Source: an uncultured Muribaculaceae bacterium
GTDB lineage: Bacteria > Bacteroidota > Bacteroidia > Bacteroidales > Muribaculaceae
DNA length: 64,000 nt
Reading direction: 5' to 3'
Assembly (NCBI GenBank): GCA_947628305.1
Contig: CANQZG010000002.1
Coordinates: 186,001 to 250,000 of the forward strand
Shown: piece by piece, positions 1-27,188 of the stretch
How the letters are laid out: every line of letters starts with the position of its first letter
Position numbering within the stretch: the first letter of the stretch is position 1
The notes under the pieces: model-generated
What the model saw: the letters and a program-made list of their open reading frames with translations, nothing else
Databases searched by the model: none
Told to the model about the DNA's origin: nothing
Program-made: the position numbers and the translations under genes

Positions 1-1314
1 ACAGTGTATCATCGCGTAGGCTGTCATGCGATTATGACGGTGTTTGAGAAATACACATATCCGACCCTGATAACGAACACAGGAGCCTCGATTAAAGGGC
101 GAGGTATGCACTGGCTCTTTCATGTCATCAAAGAAGATATGAGCCGAGTGCCAGAGTTCATGAAGTATTTCTATCAGTGTGATGTCTGCCACTACTACGA
201 CAACATCAGCCAAAGAATTATGAAGTGGCAGATCCGGCAATATACCTCTGACCCGATATTGCTGCCTCAACTTGATAATTTCGTGGAACTGCTGCCGGAG
301 GGCTTATCAAAGGGCCTCCGTTCTTCGCAATGCTTTGCCAATCTCCACCTCTCGGACATAGACCACAAAATGAGCGCGAGGGTAAGGAACTATGTCTTTA
401 CGGAGAATGGCATTGAAGAGTGCGTGCCGGTGGCTGTCGGGCAGGGTGAAATGACACTCAAGTGGCAAAAGGTACGCTTCCTGTATTACCGATACTGCGA
501 TGACATAGTAATATTCGCTCCCACGAAAAAAGAACTATGGCTGCTTCGGGATTATCTCGTGTCGTTGCTGGCCGAGAAAGGATTGCAAGTAAAGCCGAGT
601 GAGGCAGTACGCCCTTTGAGTGAGGGCAATGACTATCTCGGTTTCAAGAATTATGGCACTCATACCCTGATTAGGAAAAGGACAAAGCAAAAGTTTGCGA
701 GGGCGTTAGCGAGGGTGAAATCTCGTAAGCGCCGGCAGAAATTGATTGGCTCATTCTTTGGAATGGCGAGCCATGCAGACAGTCGGCATCTGCTAAAAAC
801 GCTTCTCGCTCCCAGTGAGTATAAACGATTAAAGTTCAAAGACAAGATGAAAGATTTCGGTGATTTCAAACTCAATCCTACCACCCTTGACGGCAAAAAG
901 AACTTCCGGGGGAATAAGATCAGCCCTCGTGAGTTAGACGGCAAAGGTTTCATCGTGGTAGATTTCGAGAGCGACGTAGTAGCCAGACGAGATAGGGAAG
1001 AATATCAGCGCAGGCTTCAGGACGCGAGTGTGAGGGGTGTTAATCCTGACCTCGTGGAGAAGCCCAAGACAAAGTATATCATTCAGATAATCTATCAGGG
1101 AGCCTTACGCAAAATGTGGACTGGCGACCGCGACCTGTGGAACATACTCGACCAGATAGCCGATGAGAACGGATTTCCGTTCTTTGCTGCTATTGAAATG
1201 GACTATTCCGGCCAATACCCCAAAGCCAATTTCGTATCAGCTTCTAAGTTCAACATCACGGCTCCCTCCGACAAAGAATTGGAAAGTATTCTCAATCGTT
1301 TCAACCTCAAATAA
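1..1314 (+). CDS. DGR-type reverse transcriptase, 5' end outside window
   Basis: RNA-directed DNA polymerase. The frame is open to base 1, so about 90 N-terminal residues are probably missing. Numbering from the GTG at base 4: SIKGRG (29-34) is the motif 2 region, the first catalytic Asp lies near D60, motif 4 reads GLRSSQCFAN (104-113) and motif 5 is YCDD (164-167). The SQ in motif 4, in place of the SP of group II intron and retron enzymes, is the hallmark of diversity-generating retroelement RTs. After the thumb-like part (about residue 270) there is an extra tail of about 160 residues that I do not recognise. The template repeat and accessory protein of a DGR normally lie upstream of the RT, here outside the window. 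RT call is certain; DGR subtype likely. Confidence 0.88.
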   Translation, partial: TVYHRVGCHAIMTVFEKYTYPTLITNTGASIKGRGMHWLFHVIKEDMSRVPEFMKYFYQCDVCHYYDNISQRIMKWQIRQYTSDPILLPQLDNFVELLPEGLSKGLRSSQCFANLHLSDIDHKMSARVRNYVFTENGIEECVPVAVGQGEMTLKWQKVRFLYYRYCDDIVIFAPTKKELWLLRDYLVSLLAEKGLQVKPSEAVRPLSEGNDYLGFKNYGTHTLIRKRTKQKFARALARVKSRKRRQKLIGSFFGMASHADSRHLLKTLLAPSEYKRLKFKDKMKDFGDFKLNPTTLDGKKNFRGNKISPRELDGKGFIVVDFESDVVARRDREEYQRRLQDASVRGVNPDLVEKPKTKYIIQIIYQGALRKMWTGDRDLWNILDQIADENGFPFFAAIEMDYSGQYPKANFVSASKFNITAPSDKELESILNRFNLK

Positions 1315-1321
1315 CAACATC

Positions 1322-1816
1322 ATGGAAAAAGTATATGGCGCCACTGGCCGACAGGACGGCCTCTATAAGATAGGCCGCAACAAGTGGGAACTTATCTTTG
1401 GCTTCGGCAAAGACAGTGAACAGGAACAGACTGGCTGGAACTACCGCCAACGCTTTTCATCGAAGCCCTCTCTCGATGAGATAAAGGCGATAATCACGGC
1501 ACAGATCGAGGCCGACTATGCAGAAAAACTCATGGCCGGGTTTGAATGGAACGGCAAGCGTGTCGAGTATTCCGAGGAGCGCAAGAGCGATTTTACCGGG
1601 CTTATCACCGGCTTGCAGGGAGGGCTGTTCCAACTGCCCCTGACAATGAACCTTAGCGATACAGCCCTCGTGTTGCATGAGTTTACATCTATCGAGGAAG
1701 TTGGTGAGGTGGCTGCCGGTATCTGCGCCCACAAAACGGCTGTTACCAATGCCAAGTGGCAAGAAAAATCATCTATAAACTGGGAGTCGGAGATATGGAA
1801 TGGTGCGCAACAGTAA
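1322..1816 (+). CDS. phage protein, DUF4376-like
   Basis: 164 residues, starting 8 bases after the reverse transcriptase stop and so probably cotranscribed. The segment [17 protein letters not shown] followed by [14 protein letters not shown] matches the pattern I remember for DUF4376-type proteins encoded near tail genes of Bacteroidales phages. No catalytic motif or membrane segment is visible. Its end overlaps the next gene by 61 bases. Function unknown; a tail-associated or DGR-associated role would be inference. Confidence 0.65.
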
Positions 1817-2265
1817 TTTCCGGCTTCATAATGGTAGTGTACCTGTTCTCATTTATCGGGAATAACGGTATTCCTACCTCGATAAGCGATACCTACTACC
1901 GCAATAACAAGCGGTGGCTATTCTCTGCTGTCCTGATAGTGGCCGCTTCTCTCGCTCTTGCTCCAATCCTGAACCACACGCCTGAAAGTTACAAGTTCCT
2001 CGGCTTCTTCATAGTGTCCGGGATATTCTTTGTCGCGGCGAGTCCGGCGTTCAAAGATGAGTTTGTCGGTAAGGTGCATTGTGGAGCTGCTATTGTTCTC
2101 GGAGTGGCCGCTGTCGTATGGATAGCCTTGACAATCGGTGTGCCGTGGCTCTCTTTGCTTGGTCTTGCTGTCGGGATATTCAACCTACGGAATTTTGTAT
2201 TTTGGATTGAGGTCGGCATACTCATAGACGTTTACCGATGTCTGTTTCATCTGCTCTCCACATAA
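1756..2265 (+). CDS. phage membrane protein, unknown function
   Basis: 169 residues with about four to five hydrophobic segments (about 17-35, 53-70, 80-95, 110-130, 133-165), so an inner-membrane protein. The ATG at 1756 gives an N-terminus [10 protein letters not shown]; a second in-frame ATG at 1795 would reduce the overlap with the preceding gene to 22 bases. Bacteroidales prophages often carry such a gene at the end of the structural block. I cannot assign a function. Confidence 0.6.
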
Positions 2266-2374
2266 GAAAATGCGCGTCGATGAAAACGGATTTTCAGAGA
2301 TTGAGTTTACCTCAATTCTCAATGCAAATATACTAAATAATAAGCATATCGCATAATTTGAGCGAAACAAAAAA

Positions 2375-2411
2375 GGCATGGAGGCCGTCGAAAAATCGAT
2401 GGCTCTCCGCC
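2375..2411 (-). terminator. imperfect hairpin, terminator-like on the minus strand
   Basis: GGCATGGAGGCCGTCGA and TCGATGGCTCTCCGCC can pair imperfectly around AAAA. On the minus strand the hairpin is followed by TTTTTTG, as in an intrinsic terminator. On the plus strand there is no U-run. The rest of the gap 2266-2500 is AT-rich and I see no gene in it. Confidence 0.35.
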
Positions 2412-2504
2412 TTGCGTTATCCTGTCTGCAACTAATAATTTGTGGATAGGATAATTTATTTTGATTTATTTTGAGGCTCCGGCCAAAACTTTTTCCCGAA
2501 AAAT

Positions 2505-2535
2505 TTTGTTGATAGTACTAAAATTAGTATCTTTG
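2505..2535 (+). promoter_or_regulatory. hicAB promoter with overlapping palindromic operator
   Basis: TTTG (2505-2508), a 19-base spacer and TATCTTTG (2528-2535) form a near-consensus Bacteroidota promoter 26 bases before hicA. An inverted repeat TACTAA-AA-TTAGTA (2516-2529) runs into the -7 box. It is the natural candidate operator for autorepression by the ribbon-helix-helix domain of HicB. Promoter seen directly; operator role inferred. Confidence 0.7.
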
Positions 2536-2560
2536 CATAACATTTCAAACCAACCTCTGA

Positions 2561-2812
2561 ATGAGTAAAAAAGAGAAACTAATTGCCCGGCTCCTTAGCC
2601 GACCAAAGGATTTCGACTATGATGAAGCCAAAGCACTCTTGCAGTACTTTGATTTCGTGGAAAGCCATAAAGGAAAGACATCAGGCTCACGAGTTGAGTT
2701 TGTCAGAGGTAACGATACGATATTGCTCCATAAACCTCACCCGTCTGGAGAATTGAAAAGTTACCAAGTAAAACAGTTAATAGATACGCTTAAAGAATTA
2801 AAACTACTCTGA
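2561..2812 (+). CDS. hicA: HicA family mRNA interferase toxin
   Basis: 83 residues, normal HicA size. HicA toxins cleave mRNA using a double-stranded RNA-binding fold with a conserved His. Here the family pattern GSRVEFVR followed by LLHKPHPSGELKSYQVKQLIDTL is complete, with the likely catalytic His in LLHKPHP. The gene has its own promoter and palindrome and is followed after one base by its antitoxin. It probably stabilises the prophage or acts in phage defence. Confidence 0.93.
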   Translation: MSKKEKLIARLLSRPKDFDYDEAKALLQYFDFVESHKGKTSGSRVEFVRGNDTILLHKPHPSGELKSYQVKQLIDTLKELKLL

Positions 2813-2813
2813 T

Positions 2814-3164
2814 ATGGGACAGCTTAAATACAAAGGTTACACCGGCTCGGTAGAGTTCAGCGACGAGGATAATTGCCTTTTCGGTAAGGTGCAGGGCCTC
2901 CACGGTACTCTTATCTCCTATGAGGGTACTACAATAGATGAGATTCGTGCAGATTTTGAGTCGGCCATTGATGAATACCTCGCAAGCTGCGAAAGCAGAG
3001 GCGTTGCTCCGGCGAAGCCTTATAGCGGAAAACTCGTACTCCGTATGCCCTCTGAACTGCATGGGAGAGTTGCTGCCGCAGCAATGGCCGCAGGTACTAC
3101 GATAAACGATTTCATCAATATGGCACTCTCCAACGAAATGGAGCATAACGCGGTAATCGGGTAA
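2814..3164 (+). CDS. hicB: HicB family antitoxin with C-terminal ribbon-helix-helix
   Basis: 116 residues. The N-terminal half (KYKGYTGSVEFSDEDNCLFGKVQGL, then YEGTTIDEIRADFESAIDEYL) is the partly degraded RNase H-like HicB fold that binds HicA. The C-terminal part (KLVLRMPSELHGRVAAAAMAAGTTINDFINMAL) is a ribbon-helix-helix DNA-binding domain expected to repress the hicAB promoter. It follows hicA by one base and ends before a strong terminator at 3192. Confidence 0.93.
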   Translation: MGQLKYKGYTGSVEFSDEDNCLFGKVQGLHGTLISYEGTTIDEIRADFESAIDEYLASCESRGVAPAKPYSGKLVLRMPSELHGRVAAAAMAAGTTINDFINMALSNEMEHNAVIG

Positions 3165-3191
3165 CAATCCCCTTGACCTCCAACCATACGG

Positions 3192-3228
3192 CAGACGCAC
3201 CAGAAACGGCGCGTCTGTTTTGTTTTTG
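3192..3228 (+). terminator. intrinsic terminator of hicAB
   Basis: CAGACGC (3192-3198) pairs with GCGTCTG (3211-3217), followed by TTTTGTTTTT. This is a classic Rho-independent terminator 28 bases after hicB. Confidence 0.85.
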
Positions 3229-3235
3229 GACTGGA

Positions 3236-3595
3236 TTATAAGCAGAGAGTGAAACGATCGAGACGTAATTCCGGCATAGCAATGTAAGGCGCGTATATGT
3301 CCTCCATGCACTCTATTTGAGATAGGCACCAGTGTTCTCGGTGCCACGCCTCCAGTTGCTCCCACTTGGGATTTTCTGCTTTATCCGGAGGCTCATATGC
3401 CCCGGCCATACAGTCGTCGATACTTGGAACTGGGATTGTGTCGAGTATGCTTGCGGCCTCCCTGTAAATGGCCAGCGTAGCGAAAGCGACCCAGTTGTTC
3501 ACCATGATTTTGTTGTCTGCCGATGCTGCGGCGAATAGGTCATCACAGACCTCCTGCGATATCCATTTCAGCATGGCGGCTTCATAGTCTTTCAT
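3236..3595 (-). CDS. leftward prophage orphan protein, unknown function
   Basis: 119 residues from the ATG at 3595 (MKDYEAAMLKWISQEV). The frame is open further upstream to 3655, but a hairpin at 3627-3649 lies in that extension. The protein is acidic, rich in Trp and Cys, with no visible membrane segment, and resembles no family I know. It is the only leftward gene between the window start and the integrase. A terminator-like hairpin sits just upstream on its own strand, so its expression may depend on read-through, or its promoter is the short stretch 3596-3626. Confidence 0.55.
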   Translation of the reverse strand: MKDYEAAMLKWISQEVCDDLFAAASADNKIMVNNWVAFATLAIYREAASILDTIPVPSIDDCMAGAYEPPDKAENPKWEQLEAWHREHWCLSQIECMEDIYAPYIAMPELRLDRFTLCL

Positions 3596-3626
3596 AATAA
3601 AAGTGCTTTGAGATGAGTAAAAAAAT

Positions 3627-3649
3627 GGCGACGGAAACGCCCCGTCGCC
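3627..3649 (-). terminator. hairpin with U-run on the minus strand
   Basis: Perfect 8-bp stem GGCGACGG / CCGTCGCC with a 7-base loop. On the minus strand it is followed by A and TTTTTTT. It would stop leftward transcripts coming out of the repeat array at 3691-3998, or act as an attenuator ahead of the leftward gene. Confidence 0.6.
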
Positions 3650-3690
3650 TGTCAATCATTACAACCCAAAGCCACAGCAAGAAAGCGATG

Positions 3691-3998
3691 TTGATACGCA
3701 AAATTGCCCTTGTGTTGACACGCAAAATATCGTTGTAATAAGTTTATTGTCAATTAGTTCTGCGTATCAATTTGCGTGTTGTTGATACGCAGATTTGATG
3801 TTGTGTTGATATGCAGATTTTATTGATACGCAAAAATCGGGGTTCTTTGATATGCAAAATCTCTCGTATGTTGACAAGCAGATTTTTCGCGTAACTCGTT
3901 GTCAAACAAGAATAACTGCATATCAATTTGCGTGTCAATGATATGCAGAATAACGTCAATGTTGATATGCAAATTGATACGCAAACTGATATGCAAAC
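3691..3998. repeat. iteron-like array of TTGATAYGCAAA, about 15 copies
   Basis: A 310 bp gene-free stretch made almost entirely of a degenerate 12-base unit TTGATAYGCARA. Direct copies start near 3691, 3715, 3782, 3806, 3823, 3847, 3871, 3938, 3962, 3974 and 3986; inverted copies lie near 3760, 3771, 3916 and 3927. Most start-to-start distances are 24 or 12 bases. Two stretches (about 3760-3794 and 3916-3948) are symmetrical modules: CTGCRTATCAA, TTTGCGTGT, then TGATAYGCAG. Such arrays serve as replication origins or partition sites in plasmids and phages. The last copies also read as the tetrapeptide repeat DMQI-DTQT-DMQT before a stop, so decayed coding sequence is an alternative. Confidence 0.8.
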
Positions 3999-4060
3999 CG
4001 AAATCACTCCTATTTAATAATATTAAGAAGAATAAGAATAAGAAAGAATACAAGTGTCCT

Positions 4061-4082
4061 AAAATCTCTTGACAGAGATTTT
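4061..4082. terminator. symmetrical hairpin after the repeat array
   Basis: Perfect 8-bp stem AAAATCTC / GAGATTTT with loop TTGACA. The stem ends in TTTT on both strands, so it could insulate the array from promoter P1 in either direction. Weak evidence for true terminator function. Confidence 0.4.
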
Positions 4083-4104
4083 GTAGAGGTAGTCATTATT
4101 GGAG

Positions 4105-4189
4105 AAAGTTGGTCTAAATTTTTTTTTAGTTGGGAGTGGTGATTTATGCCGTTAAAATTTGCACAAAAGATAATTTTTGATTAGTTTTG
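4105..4189 (+). promoter_or_regulatory. phage promoter P1
   Basis: TTTG (4158-4161), a 20-base spacer and TAGTTTTG (4182-4189). The spacer (ACAAAAGATAATTTTTGAT core) is almost identical to those of P2-P4. An AAAGTT box (4105-4110) lies 54 bases before the TTG, as in P2. P1 drives the 4244 gene; its leader resembles that of P4 and contains GCAAATAAGT at 4219. Confidence 0.82.
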
Positions 4190-4218
4190 CACTGTGAAAT
4201 CAAACTCACACCTCTAAG

Positions 4219-4228
4219 CAAATAAGTT
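4219..4228 (+). repeat. GCAAATAAGT leader motif, copy 1
   Basis: First of eight identical decamers, all 13-22 bases before a plus-strand start codon except the last. This one precedes the ATG at 4244 by 15 bases. A-rich leaders can replace Shine-Dalgarno sites in Bacteroidota, so a translation signal is the simplest reading. Confidence 0.7.
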
Positions 4229-4243
4229 CTAAAACGAAACAAG

Positions 4244-4462
4244 ATGAAAGAAAAGACAGCCCTGCTCATCATGGACGGCTTCCAAGTGGCTCTTGGAGCA
4301 ATAATGCTCGTCCTCGCAACATGGTGGATTGGATACCACCTATTCGCCGGACATTTCAATATCCCCGGCTTCGCAGTTGCAGCATTCGTGTGGTATATAG
4401 TGTATTCGCTCACCATGCTCTCAATCCGCGACTACAAGAAAACAAAGCATTCAAACATCTAA
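4244..4462 (+). CDS. small membrane protein, unknown
   Basis: 72 residues with two hydrophobic segments (about 14-34 and 42-60) and a basic C-terminus (RDYKKTKHSNI). First gene behind P1, 17 bases before the next gene. No family recognised. Confidence 0.6.
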   Translation: MKEKTALLIMDGFQVALGAIMLVLATWWIGYHLFAGHFNIPGFAVAAFVWYIVYSLTMLSIRDYKKTKHSNI

Positions 4463-4479
4463 CCTCAAACGGAACCGTT

Positions 4480-4965
4480 ATGGAAGAAACAACAACTTTG
4501 CAGAAATTTATCTCTGCACCTGTCCTCTCAAAAGAGGCACAAGCCAACGTAGCAGCAGACCTCGTGGCACAAGTAGTAAACGGAAATGTTGACCCTATCA
4601 CAGCCTTTGTTCAGATGAAGGCCGTCGGTGAGGTCGCCGAGCAATTCCTGAAGAATGCCGACATCGTGGCACTGACACAAGCTGCGGCCGCAGAGCGCGG
4701 CAAGGACGCCCAGTTCGGCGGTGCCAAAGTTGGTATCACCTACACAACCCGATACGACTACATGAGCAGCGGCGATGCCGAGTATGCAGAACTCATGCGG
4801 GCCAAAGAGGACATTGACACCAAAATCAAGGCCCGTCAGATGTTCCTCAAAAGTGTCACCGACACAATGGAGGTAGTAGACAGGGCCACCGGGGAAGTGG
4901 TAACAATCAACGCCCCGATCCCGACCAAATCCTCAACTCTCAGAGTCACCTTCGCCAAACAATAA
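4480..4965 (+). CDS. phage protein, unknown function
   Basis: 161 residues from the ATG at 4480 (MEETTTLQKFISAPVL); an open frame reaches further upstream, but inside the preceding gene. The protein is mostly helical and acidic, with a short central part TTRYDYMSSGDAEYAELMRAKEDIDTK. No signal peptide or membrane segment. Length and charge would suit a single-stranded DNA-associated or scaffold-type phage protein, but I see no diagnostic motif. Confidence 0.65.
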   Translation: MEETTTLQKFISAPVLSKEAQANVAADLVAQVVNGNVDPITAFVQMKAVGEVAEQFLKNADIVALTQAAAAERGKDAQFGGAKVGITYTTRYDYMSSGDAEYAELMRAKEDIDTKIKARQMFLKSVTDTMEVVDRATGEVVTINAPIPTKSSTLRVTFAKQ

Positions 4966-4988
4966 ATACCAAGCACAACCGATGGGGT

Positions 4989-5016
4989 AAGCGTTAGGCA
5001 ATCCGGCTTAACGCTT
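4989..5016. other. stable hairpin upstream of the dUTPase gene
   Basis: AAGCGTTA (4989-4996) pairs perfectly with TAACGCTT (5009-5016); GG and CC inside the loop can extend it. No U-run follows, so it is more likely an mRNA stabiliser or processing site between two cotranscribed genes than a terminator. Confidence 0.5.
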
Positions 5017-5045
5017 GCTTCTCGGAAACTCAACAAGGCTACCCA

Positions 5046-5819
5046 ATGACAAAAACGACTAAATCAGAAAAAGCTAAAATCCGCAAGAGAGAGTTTGAAA
5101 TAAAGCTCCTGTCTGAAAATGCGGTACTCCCGAAAAAGGCTGTGCGCGGTGCTATCGGCTATGACCTATGTCTGCCGAATGACTTTCGCGTACCGGCTCA
5201 CTCCAGAGTTGCAATACCGTTAGACCTCGCAATCAATCTCCCCGTTGGGATTGAGGCAAAGATAGAGCCTCGCAGTGGCTGCTCCCTCCGAGGTATTGAG
5301 GGCTACGGCACCCGAAAGGTCATCAAGCGCAAAATCCTCGGCATAATCCCTGTTACAGACACCAAGTCAGGCAAGATGTATTTCGATGCCGACGTATGCG
5401 TAAGCAAGATCGACCCGAACCACACGGATACAATCCATGTTATCATCATTAACCGCGATGAGTCATTCCTTATCAGGAAAGGCTCTCGTATCGCCCAGCT
5501 CACGTTTTACCAAACTATTGCTCCATTCTTCAAACAGGTAGAAGAACTGACCTGCGACAATCGCGGTGGCAGTCTGGGACATACTGGGACTGACAGACTG
5601 CGGGTAGTCCGTCGCGGCATTGCTGATGACGGTAATAGCAAACCTCTCGGAGTCGCTGATGCTCTCGAACCTCCGGCCAGTAGCACAAGTAAAGCGGCCG
5701 ATGTCAGTAATCCCGGAACCCAATCCCAATCCGTTCAGCCTGTTATTCCTGAACCTCCAGTCGTGGATAGCAGCATGGAGTCAGAAGTAGACCTCGCAGA
5801 CATAGGGGTACACGTCTAA
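5046..5819 (+). CDS. dut: dUTP diphosphatase (trimeric type) with insertion and C-terminal extension
   Basis: 257 residues against about 150 for the usual trimeric enzyme, which hydrolyses dUTP to dUMP and keeps uracil out of phage DNA. Motif 1 is AIGYDL (36-41), motif 2 PRSG (75-78), motif 4 RKGSRIAQL (144-152) and the P-loop-like motif 5 RGGSLGHTGT (173-182). Two oddities: between motifs 2 and 3 there are about 40 residues instead of about 20, and motif 3 reads SKIDPNHTD, keeping the Asp but lacking the usual IDxDY tyrosine. A proline- and serine-rich tail of about 70 residues follows motif 5. The gene ends before a strong terminator. Confidence 0.88.
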   Translation: MTKTTKSEKAKIRKREFEIKLLSENAVLPKKAVRGAIGYDLCLPNDFRVPAHSRVAIPLDLAINLPVGIEAKIEPRSGCSLRGIEGYGTRKVIKRKILGIIPVTDTKSGKMYFDADVCVSKIDPNHTDTIHVIIINRDESFLIRKGSRIAQLTFYQTIAPFFKQVEELTCDNRGGSLGHTGTDRLRVVRRGIADDGNSKPLGVADALEPPASSTSKAADVSNPGTQSQSVQPVIPEPPVVDSSMESEVDLADIGVHV

Positions 5820-5843
5820 CCACATAAGTTTCGTTTTAGGTTT

Positions 5844-5893
5844 GTAACCGACCGGGCGGCTGAATAAATGCGTTCAGCAGTTTGGCCGGTTAC
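5844..5893 (+). terminator. long hairpin terminator after dut
   Basis: GTAACCG (5844-5850) pairs with CGGTTAC (5887-5893), and inside it GCTGAA pairs with TTCAGC. TTTATTAT follows. Separates the P1 operon from the lysis cassette. Confidence 0.75.
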
Positions 5894-5920
5894 TTTATTA
5901 TCAAGGTGGCGTGTTCTTTA

Positions 5921-5928
5921 TAACTTTG
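5921..5928 (+). promoter_or_regulatory. -7 element of the lysis cassette promoter
   Basis: TAACTTTG matches TAnnTTTG; no convincing TTTG lies at the -33 spacing. It sits 28 bases before the ATG at 5956 and inside the longer open frame, which is why the later start is preferred for the holin-like gene. Confidence 0.5.
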
Positions 5929-5955
5929 CTTCAAACTAATAGACACATCGACACC

Positions 5956-6435
5956 ATGATAGAGATAATCTCGACTGACATTATACCGGTGCAAAAGCTA
6001 ATGCTTTTTCTGGGAATTTTCCTCGGAATAAGCCTTTTAGTTATTGCTGCAATAATGCTTGACCTTTGGGACGGCGTTAGTACAGCAAAGAAACTCCATA
6101 AGAAAGTCCACTCTCACAAACTGCGAGTAACGGTACAGAAGATGTCGGAGTATTGGCGCTTCATCGTTATCGGCTTTTTGGTGGACTGCATAGGCTTCCT
6201 GTTCTCGTTTTACGTTCTGCCGTTCATGGTAATGCTATTCGGCATCGGGCTAATCGTAGTGGAGATAAAATCCATGTTTGAACACGCCAAACGTAGGAAG
6301 AGTCAGACCGCACAACTCCCCGATATATGGCAGGCAATATGCGATGCCGCAAGTGAAAAGGAGGCACAGCAGATATTCCAGAAGATTGCAAGCCTCTTGG
6401 AGGATAAGAAGATTGAAGAAAGCAAAACCGTATAA
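5956..6435 (+). CDS. holin-like phage membrane protein
   Basis: 159 residues from the ATG at 5956. It has an N-terminal hydrophobic segment (about 12-34) and a pair of hydrophobic segments in the middle (about 70-110), then a charged helical tail. Size, topology and place directly before an endolysin fit a holin that permeabilises the inner membrane at lysis. Transcription probably starts at the -7 box at 5921. Two bases separate it from the endolysin. Holin role rests on context and topology. Confidence 0.7.
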   Translation: MIEIISTDIIPVQKLMLFLGIFLGISLLVIAAIMLDLWDGVSTAKKLHKKVHSHKLRVTVQKMSEYWRFIVIGFLVDCIGFLFSFYVLPFMVMLFGIGLIVVEIKSMFEHAKRRKSQTAQLPDIWQAICDAASEKEAQQIFQKIASLLEDKKIEESKTV

Positions 6436-6437
6436 TC

Positions 6438-7076
6438 ATGGCAAAAGTAGAGAACATCGTACCATTCATTCTGTATTACGAGGCCGGCGGCGCCAAAAGT
6501 TGCTTCAAGACAGTAACAGTCGACGGGAAAAAGAAGCGTGTTTATGACCCCTCCCTGCTCCCATTTGAAAAGCAGTTTGAGGAATGCCGTAAAACTGGCC
6601 TCGCCAACGACCCTGACGATCGAGGCGGTCTTACCATGTGTGGCGTTACTTACGCTACCTATGCTATGTATTGCAACCGCAAGCACATCAAGGCCACAGA
6701 GTCTGGGTTAAAGAACTTATCGTATGCCGTATGGCTTGACATTCTCAAAACGCTCTTTTGGGATAGGTGGAAAGCAGACCAGATAGAAAATCAGGCTCTC
6801 GCCAATATCCTTGTTGACTGGGTTTGGGCGAGTGGCGTTAACGGCATCAAGCGTCCCCAGCGGATACTCGGCGTGTCGGTCGACGGCATTGTAGGCCCCA
6901 AAACACTTGCCGCTGTCAATAGTTCAGATTCGCAGAAACTTTTTGCTGAACTCCATGCTGACAGACTCAAGCATTTCAAGGAGATAGTAAACCGTGTCCC
7001 CTCTCAAAGAAAATTCCTGAAAGGGTGGAACCGTCGAGTCAATGGCATAGCCTACGAAGGCTTCATTTATGCGTGA
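6438..7076 (+). CDS. GH108 endolysin with peptidoglycan-binding domain
   Basis: 212 residues. The N-terminus contains the glycosyl hydrolase 108 (ZliS-type lysozyme) pattern: the likely catalytic Glu in YYEAGG (E15) and NDPDDRGGLTMCGVTY (57-72). An insertion KTVTVDGKKKRVYDP separates the two halves. The C-terminal half (ILGVSVDGIVGPKTLAAVN and on) is a predicted peptidoglycan-binding domain of the family usually fused to GH108. It cleaves the glycan strands after holin action; there is no signal peptide. Overlaps the next mini-gene by 8 bases. Confidence 0.9.
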   Translation: MAKVENIVPFILYYEAGGAKSCFKTVTVDGKKKRVYDPSLLPFEKQFEECRKTGLANDPDDRGGLTMCGVTYATYAMYCNRKHIKATESGLKNLSYAVWLDILKTLFWDRWKADQIENQALANILVDWVWASGVNGIKRPQRILGVSVDGIVGPKTLAAVNSSDSQKLFAELHADRLKHFKEIVNRVPSQRKFLKGWNRRVNGIAYEGFIYA

Positions 7077-19492: not shown

Positions 19493-19566
19493 GAGAGTAT
19501 ATAAAGCAAACGACATAAATTACAAACAAAGCCTTGGGCGGCTTAGTAAAACCCACCAGTAACAAC

Positions 19567-20283
19567 ATGAAAAAGTACATCGGTACTAAACAGGTTATGG
19601 CTGCTCCCATGACCTATGGACAGGCCCACAAAGAAGGACTTATCCGTGAAAACGCTTATGTCGAAGAATACGACGAGCGCCCCGGTTATCTCGTAGAATA
19701 CGCAGATGGCTACAAATCATGGTCGCCGGCAGACGTATTTGAGGCAGCCTACAAGGTCGCCGAAACGCCTCTTGACCGAGTGAACATCGAAATCGCAGAT
19801 GTCATGTCACGCGCAAACAAACTCGGCGATTTCATCTACAATCGCAATGAAGGCAAGGACTTTCAAGCTATGCCTCTCGGTACTCGAGCATTCCTCGTGG
19901 CACAGCATCAGACGATGGGCGCATATCTGACCCTGCTGTGCCTGCGTCAGTCCTGCATGGAAGGAGGCGAAGAATGCCGTCCGTGGGGTCTGTCCTTTGA
20001 GCAAGTGCTTCCTATGATACGCGAGGGCTATGCCGTGCGCCGCGAAATCTGGGGAGAGAACGGCAAAATGGTGTTCAAGCAAGTGCCGGCCCATATCACG
20101 GCTGACATTATCCCAAAAATGCAGTCGCTCCCAGATGAGGCCAAGCGTCTCGTGTTGGCCGCTGGCGATCACATAGACTATGTTTCGCAGTGCCTCATAT
20201 TCGACCCCGGAAGCAGCACTGCAAATTCGTGGTGTCCGTCAGTAGATGACCTCTTCGCTCACGACTGGCAACTCGTATTCTGA
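19567..20283 (+). CDS. three-domain anti-defence candidate: KYIGTK domain, Acb2/Tad1-like hairpin, Tad2 (DUF2829)
   Basis: 238 residues. Residues 1-62 (MKKYIGTKQVMAAPM, YLVEYADGYKSWSP) are a domain common in Bacteroidales phages. Residues 66-130 (DRVNIEIADVMSRANKLGDFI, LVAQHQTMGAYLTLLCLR) match the two-helix pattern ERV..E...L..KL..FI......LL..Q..AM..Y that I know from Acb2 and Tad1. Residues 142-238 (LSFEQVLPMIREGYAVRRE, WCPSVDDLFAHDWQLV) match DUF2829, the Tad2 domain. Acb2, Tad1 and Tad2 bind cyclic nucleotide or gcADPR signals and so block CBASS or Thoeris. This protein may be a combined sponge; motif matches only, activity unproven. Confidence 0.78.
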   Translation: MKKYIGTKQVMAAPMTYGQAHKEGLIRENAYVEEYDERPGYLVEYADGYKSWSPADVFEAAYKVAETPLDRVNIEIADVMSRANKLGDFIYNRNEGKDFQAMPLGTRAFLVAQHQTMGAYLTLLCLRQSCMEGGEECRPWGLSFEQVLPMIREGYAVRREIWGENGKMVFKQVPAHITADIIPKMQSLPDEAKRLVLAAGDHIDYVSQCLIFDPGSSTANSWCPSVDDLFAHDWQLVF

Positions 20284-23889: not shown

Positions 23890-25110
23890 TCACGCTTCAA
23901 GTTCAGAAATTAACTGCTCCATACTTTTGTCAGAGGCCACGGCATCGAAAACTCTCCGTATAGCTTTGTCGGCCATTCTCTTGTTGACTCTGACATAAAA
24001 CGACAAGGCCCTGTTAGATGGTAACGGCGAGTCGCCGATGCAGTATTCAATTACCGAGTCCTTTATCATAAGTTCATTGGCAATCTGCGAGAATGTCTTA
24101 CGAGCTGAATAGAATATCAGTTTTTCAAACCCGATTTTCTTCCTTAGTTTTATCAGGTGGTCTGCATTTATATGTTGGATTGAGCGTTCGGTAGTAAAGT
24201 TATTGAATTTCAATTTACCCTCGGAGGTCAGGTATTTGTCGAGAATGGCTCTCGCCTCCGGCTGTATGGTGAACTCTGTTGTGTCGTTAGCATCGCGTCG
24301 TTTGAAAGTCTTTTGTCTGATGAAACTCACGGAGTCTTTCGTTAGGTCGAGCCGCAGAATGTCAGCCAAGTTCATGCCGCATAAATAGAAACTCAACATA
24401 AAGAGGTCGCGGGCATAAATCTCCCACTTGTCTGTAAGCTCCATGTCGCGCATTTGGCGTAGTTGGTCAAGAGATAGAGCAATATCCCTGCGAGCCGATT
24501 TGACGGTCTTGTAGTCCAAAAAGGGATACACTTTATACTTGACATATCCATGTCGTATAGCATACTTGACCAATCGCTTCAACGACTCCATGCGCATCCC
24601 GACTGTGGTCTGCGAATATCCTAACTTTTCCAAAAACTTATGATAGGCAACCACGTTGTCATGGGTCAAGGTACAGAGAACGAAATCTTTTCCGGCGTAT
24701 TCAATGAACCGATTTATTCCTTGCTTGAACCCGGCCACAGTTGATTTAGACCAAGCGTGCTCTCGATTGGCAAGCATATCCTCCGAAATTTGCTCGACGG
24801 TCTTTAATCCTGTGTTCTGTTCTTGCCGCTTGGTGAGCATATTGACCAGTTGGGCGCAAGTGTAGTAGTCGATGTCCTCCAATTCATCACACGCCTTATA
24901 AAAGTCATTCATGCGTGTACGGAGTTGGAGATTGATGTATTGAGCATTCGGCACTCCTACCACGTTACCGTTTTTCAGGTTCTTTGGACTGGGAACAGTG
25001 AAGCGAGTAGGAATGTAGCGAGTCTGAGAGTTATGGCTGACGGCAATCCTCAATTTGTGGGAGCCGTCGGCCAGCACTTTTAGTGGTAATATGACTATTC
25101 TGATATTCAT
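23890..25110 (-). CDS. int: tyrosine-type site-specific integrase
   Basis: 406 residues from the ATG at 25110 (MNIRIVILPLKVLADGSHKLRIAVSH), the usual start of Bacteroidales integrases; the frame is open further upstream. N-terminal arm-binding part, SAM-like core-binding part (about 95-185), C-terminal catalytic part. The Arg of box 1 is replaced (GMNLADILRL), as in several Bacteroidales families; box 2 reads SARKTFSQIA and the nucleophile is the Tyr in SFYVRV. It integrates and, with an excisionase, excises the prophage. Sits at the prophage edge next to mutL. Confidence 0.9.
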   Translation of the reverse strand: MNIRIVILPLKVLADGSHKLRIAVSHNSQTRYIPTRFTVPSPKNLKNGNVVGVPNAQYINLQLRTRMNDFYKACDELEDIDYYTCAQLVNMLTKRQEQNTGLKTVEQISEDMLANREHAWSKSTVAGFKQGINRFIEYAGKDFVLCTLTHDNVVAYHKFLEKLGYSQTTVGMRMESLKRLVKYAIRHGYVKYKVYPFLDYKTVKSARRDIALSLDQLRQMRDMELTDKWEIYARDLFMLSFYLCGMNLADILRLDLTKDSVSFIRQKTFKRRDANDTTEFTIQPEARAILDKYLTSEGKLKFNNFTTERSIQHINADHLIKLRKKIGFEKLIFYSARKTFSQIANELMIKDSVIEYCIGDSPLPSNRALSFYVRVNKRMADKAIRRVFDAVASDKSMEQLISELEA

Positions 25111-25114
25111 TATT

Positions 25115-25172
25115 CCGACAATAAAACGACAATAATCAGCCGTCGGTTTAGTGTCGGACAACAATCTGACAA
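25115..25172. repeat. paired GACAA repeats beside the integrase, candidate arm sites
   Basis: GACAA occurs at 25117, 25128, 25157 and 25168: two pairs with 11-base spacing, 40 bases apart. Located directly upstream of the integrase start, where arm-type integrase or Xis sites are expected. The attachment core cannot be fixed because the left end is not in the window. The rest of 25173-25292 holds nothing I can name. Confidence 0.45.
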
Positions 25173-25292: not shown

Positions 25293-27188
25293 TCAGACTT
25301 TTAGCAGAGACGAAAGTTGTTCATCGGTGATGATTGCGGTGACGGGTTTGCCGTCAGGTGTATAATGGGGTGACGATGAGCGCAGGAGTTCGCCGAGAAG
25401 ATGCTCTGCCTCGGCATCGGTCATGTCGCGGCCGGCACGTGTGGCCGCTGAACGGGCCATGGAGAGAGTCACGCTTTCATATACCTTGTCCTCGATTTCA
25501 TCGCCTGTCTCGGTAACGGTTTCAATCATGGCCGTGAGGGTTTCGGTAGGATTGATTCCGTTAAGTTCGGCCGGCATTCCGTTGACACTCCAGGTATTAT
25601 CGCCGAGATAGGCGATGTCAAATCCGAGAGAGCCGATGGTTGTAGCTATCGATGCCAGGACAGCATTCTGTGCCGGGGACAGTTCTATGGTCTCCGGGAA
25701 AAGCACGCGTTGGGTGCTGAAACGGTGATTGCAAGCCATCTCATAGTAGCGGTCATAAAGTACCCGGACACCGGCGCGGTATCGGTCCACAATCATCAAT
25801 CCCTCGCGGGCCGGGGAGAGTATATACCGTTTTTTGAGTTGCATTATGCCGGATACGTTATCTGACGGTGTGTCAATCAACCCCGGCACTTCATTTATAT
25901 TGAGTGCGCTCTCGACAACAGGTATGTCATCGGTATCGCCGGGTACTGAATTATTGTGTTGACGTTCACCGGTGAAATTGGAATACAGTCGTTCCCAATC
26001 GGTAATCATCGAGTTTAATGCGCTCTGACGATAGGTTGATGGGGTGTTGTGGCGAGAATTGTCATGTCCCGGGGTGGGTGTGTCGAAAGGGTTGTATCCG
26101 GCTTCAAGTTCGATGCTGTGCTCTCCGTTGGCGTTAGGGGCGAAGGCGGGAATGTCGGGGGTGTCGTCAGTGTCAAAATCGATTCCGGGCACTGCGTTGT
26201 ACCGTCCGAGTGACTCACGTATTGCCGCGACGATGATTTGCCATATAGCTTGTTCGTCCTCAAATTTGATTTCATGTTTTGTCGGATGGATGTTGACATC
26301 TATTGATGCCGGGTCTACCTCGAAATTGATGAAATAATTCGGCTGGAGTTCCGGGCCGATGAGGTTTTCATAACAAGTCATGACGGCCTTGTGGAAATAG
26401 GGGTGACGCATGTTGCGCCCGTTTACAAAGAAATATTGCAACGGGTTGCGCTTACGGGCGTTTTCAGGCAGTCCGATGAACCCTGAAATCTTTACGATTG
26501 AAGTGTCGGTGGTTATCTCGATGAGCTGTCGGTCAAGTTGTTTCCCGAATAGGTCGGTTATGCGGTTCTTTAGGCTGCCTTTGCGCAATTGTTGGAGTGT
26601 GACATCGTTGTGTATCAGCGTGAACTCCACCCCGGTGTTGACGAGCGCGAGACGTTCAAATTCGCGGACGATATTGTTTAGTTCGACCGTATCTTTTTTC
26701 AGGAATTTGCGACGTGCAGGGACGTTGAAGAAAAGGTTTTTCACCATGAGATTAGTCCCCGGGACGGTGGCCTCGGGTGTCTGTTCGATGACTCTCGACC
26801 CCTCAATCAGGATTCGTGTGCCGATTTTTTCATCACGTGGCATCGTGCGCATATCGATTTGTGCGATTGCGGCAATCGAGGCAAGCGCCTCCCCGCGGAA
26901 TCCCATGGTGTGAAGGGCGAACAGGTCGGATGCCGCCGAAATCTTGGATGTCGCATGTCGTTCAAATGCAAGCGCGGCATCGGTGTCTGACATCCCACGG
27001 CCGTTGTCAACGACCTGAATCAAGGTGCGACCGGCGTCCTTCAATATGATTTTGACGGAGTCTGCACCCGCGTCAATCGAATTTTCGACAAGTTCCTTGA
27101 TGACTGACGCGGGGCGTTGTATTACTTCTCCCGCCGCTATCTGGTTTGCCACCGAATCGGGCAAAAGTTTAATGACATCAGCTGACAT
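25293..27188 (-). CDS. mutL: DNA mismatch repair protein MutL
   Basis: 631 residues. N-terminal GHKL ATPase: ENSIDAGAD (35-43), DNGRGM (61-66), GFRGEAL (96-102); then a variable linker (about 340-430) and a C-terminal dimerisation domain. Links MutS mismatch recognition to strand removal. The nearest chromosomal gene to the prophage; its 3' end is 183 bases from the integrase. Last gene of the leftward block; 22 bases from the OstA-like gene. Confidence 0.97.
   Translation of the reverse strand: MSADVIKLLPDSVANQIAAGEVIQRPASVIKELVENSIDAGADSVKIILKDAGRTLIQVVDNGRGMSDTDAALAFERHATSKISAASDLFALHTMGFRGEALASIAAIAQIDMRTMPRDEKIGTRILIEGSRVIEQTPEATVPGTNLMVKNLFFNVPARRKFLKKDTVELNNIVREFERLALVNTGVEFTLIHNDVTLQQLRKGSLKNRITDLFGKQLDRQLIEITTDTSIVKISGFIGLPENARKRNPLQYFFVNGRNMRHPYFHKAVMTCYENLIGPELQPNYFINFEVDPASIDVNIHPTKHEIKFEDEQAIWQIIVAAIRESLGRYNAVPGIDFDTDDTPDIPAFAPNANGEHSIELEAGYNPFDTPTPGHDNSRHNTPSTYRQSALNSMITDWERLYSNFTGERQHNNSVPGDTDDIPVVESALNINEVPGLIDTPSDNVSGIMQLKKRYILSPAREGLMIVDRYRAGVRVLYDRYYEMACNHRFSTQRVLFPETIELSPAQNAVLASIATTIGSLGFDIAYLGDNTWSVNGMPAELNGINPTETLTAMIETVTETGDEIEDKVYESVTLSMARSAATRAGRDMTDAEAEHLLGELLRSSSPHYTPDGKPVTAIITDEQLSSLLKV

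Follow-up and report, generated by a model that had tools for sequence, protein, structure and literature searches.

A phage-type protein of an uncultured Muribaculaceae bacterium joins a Tad2-family domain to a PF21825 hairpin and a modular N-terminal domain

Does one protein of an uncultured Muribaculaceae bacterium join two sponges for host immune signals, an Acb2/Tad1-type hairpin and a Tad2 domain? The question is raised by an open reading frame at positions 19567..20283 (forward strand) of the window, the whole stretch of 64,000 nucleotides that was analysed. It encodes 238 amino acids plus the stop codon from an ATG at 19567. An alternative upstream TTG start at 19534 stands in the open reading frame list of the window; it is unlikely to be used, because MKKYIGTK forms the N-terminus at the ATG in all 24 proteins of alignment A1. 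This alignment consists of the window protein and 23 of the distinct three-domain proteins; duplicates were left out, as were L028, truncated by the end of its contig, and L030 with its HNH insertion. Alignments A2, A3 and A4 are chosen selections rather than all available loci.

The reading frame is genuine and did not arise by chance, since both PF11195 and PF21825 are matched in 24/24 A1 proteins (Pfam, E<=1) and dN/dS between the window gene and that of L131, its nearest relative, is about 0.09 overall. The values for the separate domains are 0.04 (N-terminal), 0.06 (hairpin) and 0.13 (Tad2), and all three are under purifying selection. A Pfam scan of the protein gave two families above their cut-offs, PF21825 and PF11195, and none for residues 1-66. 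The AlphaFold2 model built with alignment A1 (pLDDT 86.6, pTM 0.70 for the 238-residue protein) contains a small beta-rich N-terminal domain, then a hairpin whose helices span residues 68-91 and 104-131, and finally the C-terminal domain. The fusion of an N-terminal domain, a PF21825 hairpin and a Tad2 domain in one protein is real, and the single fused protein of the original prediction is borne out by this one reading frame with its three domains.

The C-terminal domain had been predicted as Tad2 (DUF2829) at residues 142-238, and this assignment stands: residues 143-237 (19993..20277, forward strand) match PF11195 with E=8.6e-12 and 45.9 bits against a curated cut-off of 25, and the best PF11195 match among the A1 members, 24/24 of which match at E<=1, reaches 2.8e-19. 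Among solved proteins, the nearest by sequence are SptTad2 (8wjd, 2.3e-9), HgmTad2/AcrIIA7 (8kbi, 1.5e-6), AcrIIA7 (9kzr, 5.3e-6) and ModTad2 (0.0018); the matches to 8kbi and 9kzr mean that homology to AcrIIA7 is present. In the fold search with the predicted model, the ten best matches are without exception Tad2/AcrIIA7 entries, with Z from 12.5 down to 10.6. SptTad2 with cGG stands first (Z 12.5, 100 residues aligned, rmsd 2.7), and the match that follows these ten is to a hairpin (Z 8.6). Judged by profile and predicted structure, the C-terminal domain is a member of the Tad2 family with the Tad2 fold.

The likeness to SptTad2 (8wjd) and HgmTad2/AcrIIA7 (8kbi, 8kbj, 8kbk, 9kzr) extends over the whole domain and includes the long insertion. 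This insertion, at about residues 172-204 (20080..20178, forward strand), aligns through those of SptTad2 and HgmTad2, and its family conservation is 0.82. Identity to these proteins over the domain is about 23-27%; whereas most of the solved Tad2 proteins matched here consist of a single domain of about 90-104 residues, the window copy is the C-terminal third of a 238-residue protein with two further domains. A second difference lies in the loop at residues 161-167 (20047..20067, forward strand), which reads IWGENGK in place of the GWNGKGL pattern typical of relatives. At positions 161, 163, 164, 165 and 167, 20 to 22 of the 23 relatives differ from the window residue; the change is common to the window protein and L131, and is absent from L132. 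The sequence of this loop suggests that the ligand or activity of the window Tad2 domain may differ from that of its relatives.

The middle of the protein had been predicted as an Acb2/Tad1-type hairpin at residues 66-130. Instead, residues 67-127 (19765..19947, forward strand) match PF21825 (crAss001_48 related) with E=3.1e-8 and 33.8 bits against a curated cut-off of 24.8, and this family is matched in 24/24 members of A1 and 24/24 of A2 (E<=1). PF24729 (Acb2_Tad1_hairpin) is matched in no member of A2 or A1 (24 each, E<=1). The PF24729 model is present in the library and works, because T4 Acb2 (Vs.4), run as a control against the same library, matches it at 7.1e-20. A profile search for both predicted domains of the window protein recovered Tad2 (PF11195) and did not list the Acb2/Tad1 family PF24729 at E<=10. 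Comparison with hhalign of 21 hairpins to 15 T4-like Acb2 proteins gave a probability of 0.15%, and the N-terminal domain plus hairpin gave 0.04%; the hairpins compared to the single DenB.1 sequence as a control gave 97.4%. In phage T4 both families exist as separate genes, DenB.1 (PF21825) and Vs.4/Acb2 (PF24729). In an 8-sequence alignment that spans T4 DenB.1, proteins of Acinetobacter, Rhizobium and Bacteroides phages and the window protein, ten hairpin positions are invariant, and the invariant residues include R71, E75, Q113, Y120 and R127.

By these comparisons, the hairpin belongs to PF21825, a phage family distinct from Acb2/Tad1, and its identity as Acb2/Tad1 was rejected. The Acb2/Tad1 half of the original prediction is unsupported because of this membership, and the idea of a "double sponge" finds no support from the hairpin half. 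Acb2 (T4 Vs.4, PaP2 p26) and Tad1, the proteins of PF24729, are like the window hairpin in being small phage proteins with a helical hairpin; the window hairpin differs from Acb2 in its Pfam family, in lacking the conserved Acb2 stretches of alignment A4 and in giving no profile-profile match. A tempting misreading is corrected here: a helical hairpin beside Tad2 is not thereby an Acb2. With the PF21825 family, including T4 DenB.1, the window hairpin shares the invariant R/E/Q/Y/R set; it differs from stand-alone DenB.1 (64 amino acids) in forming the middle of a fusion, and the window copy has a four-residue insertion after residue 90. T4 DenB.1 (NC_000866.4 167743-167937; L121:2244-2438, reverse strand) is annotated as hypothetical, and its gene adjoins denB, near ndd and stp. 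A search of open-licence literature found no tested function for PF21825.

That the hairpin is nevertheless an Acb2/Tad1-type sponge, so that two independent sponges would bind cyclic oligonucleotides and gcADPR, is very improbable. Its one attraction is the order of elements, a beta-rich N-terminal domain followed by a two-helix hairpin, which is also the order given for Tad1 in a review (PMC12043709). The Pfam assignment, the separate presence of both families in T4 and the hhalign probabilities all point the other way. So does, as weak evidence, the absence of Acb2 and Tad1 from the 50 matches listed in each of two fold searches with residues 1-133, all of them helical hairpins of a general kind with Z no higher than 8.7. 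Neither protein is among the listed matches of the fold search with the predicted model, which excludes nothing. The N-terminal domain and hairpin together were also rejected as a whole Tad1, given that PF24729 returned no score and no Tad1 stood among the fold matches listed, a rejection drawn from the family model and the fold searches rather than from Tad1 sequences. An hmmsearch of these two domains against the PDB returned only weak coiled-coil-like matches. For the hairpin alone, the best PDB matches were two duplicated interferon-gamma chains (0.00045 and 0.00047), a likeness read as chance, as no single stretch scores better than E 2.3. Within the phylum, PF24729 was found in 0/296 genomes, a count that does not demonstrate absence, as no control genome matched; the T4 record did match.

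The remaining domain, residues 1-66 (19567..19764, forward strand), carries the pattern KYIGTK...GY.V.Y.DGY.SWSP..F and matches no Pfam family. It was considered as a second, degenerate Tad2 and rejected, with an hhalign probability of about 1% and only a short SW.P..D.F stretch in common. Its distribution was followed by a census with HMMs of the three domains (N; H, the PF21825-type hairpin; T, Tad2) on the open reading frames of the collected loci; L046 yielded no protein. The HMMs were built from loci that are also counted in the viral census, so that its counts lean towards a match, and duplicate proteins are counted: among 80 viral loci there were 31 N-H-T, 21 N-H, 16 N-T, 11 N and 4 T reading frames, and one each of T-T, N-H-T-T and N-T-T. 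The 41 genome loci gave 14 N-H-T, 12 N-H, 6 N, 4 N-T, 3 T, 3 N-N and 1 T-T. Two N-only reading frames checked against Pfam (L067, L163) contain PF13876 (Phage_gp49_66) after the N domain, and one protein of Rhizobium phage RHph_X3_15 (L126:1177-1932) combines Phage_gp49_66, a KYIGTK-type N domain and PF21825 in one chain in another order.

The N domain is a swappable module, paired with Tad2, PF21825 or gp49_66. The original prediction of a third, N-terminal domain holds as far as a separate domain is concerned; its supposed restriction to Bacteroidales does not, because relatives occur in Acinetobacter, Rhizobium and Pseudomonas phages, where fetched records contain N together with a PF21825-type hairpin, and also in clostridial genomes and others within the set of 41 genome loci. 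Only the full N-H-T order is restricted to Bacteroidales, judged by the titles of these 41 genome loci and of six fetched phage records. The 14 N-H-T genome loci have titles of Muribaculaceae, Prevotella or Prevotellaceae, Paraprevotella, Leyella and Palleniella, all of which we take to be Bacteroidales, and the only phage of the six with this order is Bacteroides phage BS-TP1. Its protein gp86 (XPO95219.1, 'DUF2829 domain-containing protein') has the N domain, PF21825-type hairpin and Tad2 in the same order at 45% identity to the window protein; it belongs to a different phage and retains the canonical GWNGKG loop. Bacteroidales phages and prophages repeatedly carry the N-H-T order, and the long-insertion Tad2 domain here is the C-terminal part of such a recurring three-domain protein. 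One open-licence literature library was searched for this architecture, and no earlier description was found in it.

Phage collections were rich in relatives, with 37 INPHARED records and 80 of 107 IMG/VR stretches kept. A search of 61 related genomes gave matches only in the genome of the window itself and in one other (34% identity, Tad2 part only). The scan of species genomes yielded the 41 loci, the nearest being those of uncultured Muribaculaceae L131 (86%) and L132 (67%); the L131 protein is identical in length to the window protein and identical at 204/238 residues. Mean conservation across A1 is 0.80 for Tad2, 0.67 for the N domain and 0.50 for the hairpin. Against L131 the Tad2 domain shows the weakest constraint among the three, yet it is the most conserved across the wider family; the hairpin is the least conserved in A1.

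The genes around the reading frame form a phage-like block, with a dUTPase, a GH108-type endolysin, RadC and a primase-like reading frame, next to which lie YopX, a weak radical-SAM/DUF5131 reading frame, a weak Bro-N reading frame and then an integrase (23890-25164, reverse strand). The reading frame beyond the integrase (25293-27188, reverse strand) is presumably a MutL-type repair protein. Judged from the reading frames named here rather than from capsid or terminase genes, a prophage or related integrated element is the best interpretation of the block. No tRNA was found in the 64,000-nucleotide window. At its left edge (1-1314) lies a further member of the phage-like block, a reverse-transcriptase-like reading frame (phrog_1423), which may be part of a diversity-generating retroelement; a search of window positions 1-6500 for direct repeats of at least 50 bases found none.

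What would such a protein do for its prophage? It is fairly probable that it is a prophage-encoded counter-defence sponge of the Tad2 class with two accessory modules. This reading builds on the observed three-domain architecture, Tad2 membership and fold, long insertion and purifying selection; oligomerisation, ligands and blocking are its predicted part. The Tad2 domain would oligomerise like the solved Tad2 proteins and keep host immune signals from their effectors. Its core pocket would hold an ADP-ribose-type signal (gcADPR or His-ADPR), and a second pocket, formed by the long insertion, would probably take up a cyclic dinucleotide; Thoeris or CBASS would be blocked as a result. The PF21825 hairpin and the KYIGTK domain would be separate accessory modules shuffled by phages, whose most likely roles are oligomerisation, positioning or binding of a further partner. 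Counted for the Tad2-class reading were the PF11195 match, the SptTad2 and HgmTad2 matches, the conserved insertion, the separate gcADPR and cyclic-dinucleotide pockets that a review gives Tad2, purifying selection on all domains and the phage-type neighbourhood with its integrase; counted against it were the changed GWNGKG loop, the Tad2 dN/dS of 0.13 against L131 and the lack of a match for the window protein in PADLOC, whose library covers defence systems and not anti-defence ones.

The reported ligands of Tad2 bear on how many defences such a protein could meet. Tad2 binds gcADPR in one pocket pair and, independently, cyclic dinucleotides via the insertion, and does not bind cyclic trinucleotides, according to the review (PMC12043709). 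In further papers, Myroides Tad2 is reported to bind His-ADPR (PMC13299392), SptTad2 to have a slight effect on Panoptes defence (PMC12657218) and SPO1 Tad2 not to bind 3'3'-cGAMP (PMC11722364), so that CBASS is not covered by every Tad2. One Tad2 domain could hence in principle cope with Thoeris signals as well as with some of those of CBASS, and a second sponge would not be needed. The window protein may block both Thoeris and CBASS in this way, through its Tad2 domain alone, whose long insertion resembles those of SptTad2 and HgmTad2; the changed loop at 161-167 counts against this for the window copy.

Two other readings concern different parts of the protein. It is unlikely that the Tad2-like domain acts on CRISPR-Cas9 in the manner of AcrIIA7, or that it has lost signal binding and performs another job. 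AcrIIA7 carries DUF2829, as stated in PMC6739104, HgmTad2 was deposited as 'Inhibitor of Type II CRISPR-Cas system', and in the GWNGKG loop the window copy differs from its family; the AcrIIA7/HgmTad2 protein was solved with 1',2'-cADPR and with cGG, which favours nucleotide binding, and the changed loop is kept in L131 in a domain with a dN/dS of 0.13. A somewhat less improbable reading is that the hairpin and N domain also serve counter-defence but are directed at another target, in which case at least two host systems would be blocked, one of them not nucleotide-based. The fusion of the N domain to Tad2, PF21825 or gp49_66 in different phages, the Rhizobium phage protein joining three of these domains, the polar residues R71, E75, Q113, Y120 and R127, which do not vary between T4 and Bacteroides phages, and the position of T4 denB.1 in the region of ndd, denB and stp are consistent with it. 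This evidence is one of association, however, and shuffled phage modules need no common purpose; nor did the literature search provide a tested PF21825 function. In its wider form, held with equal reserve, the KYIGTK domain, PF21825, Phage_gp49_66 and Tad2 might constitute a swappable phage counter-defence kit, in which PF21825, including DenB.1, would represent a novel family of inhibitors or nucleotide-binding proteins with its own conserved R/E/Q/Y/R site, and the window protein might be multi-target by a non-Acb2 route. Through their association with the N module, PF21825 and gp49_66 become testable counter-defence candidates.

Several relatives have unusual contexts. A contig titled Candidatus Gastranaerophilales (L145) contains a Tad2 match with 51% identity to the window Tad2 domain, which reflects either mis-binning or wide transfer. 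In L001 (reading frame from 5415) and L133 (reading frame from 4415), a short frame about 0.7 kb downstream of the three-domain gene contains two stretches matched by the Tad2 HMM, and is possibly a neighbouring Tad2-like gene. In L030 (3291-4553), a three-domain relative, an in-frame insertion with HNH_3 and AP2 domains lies inside the Tad2 part, and by its domains it looks like a homing endonuclease within a counter-defence gene.
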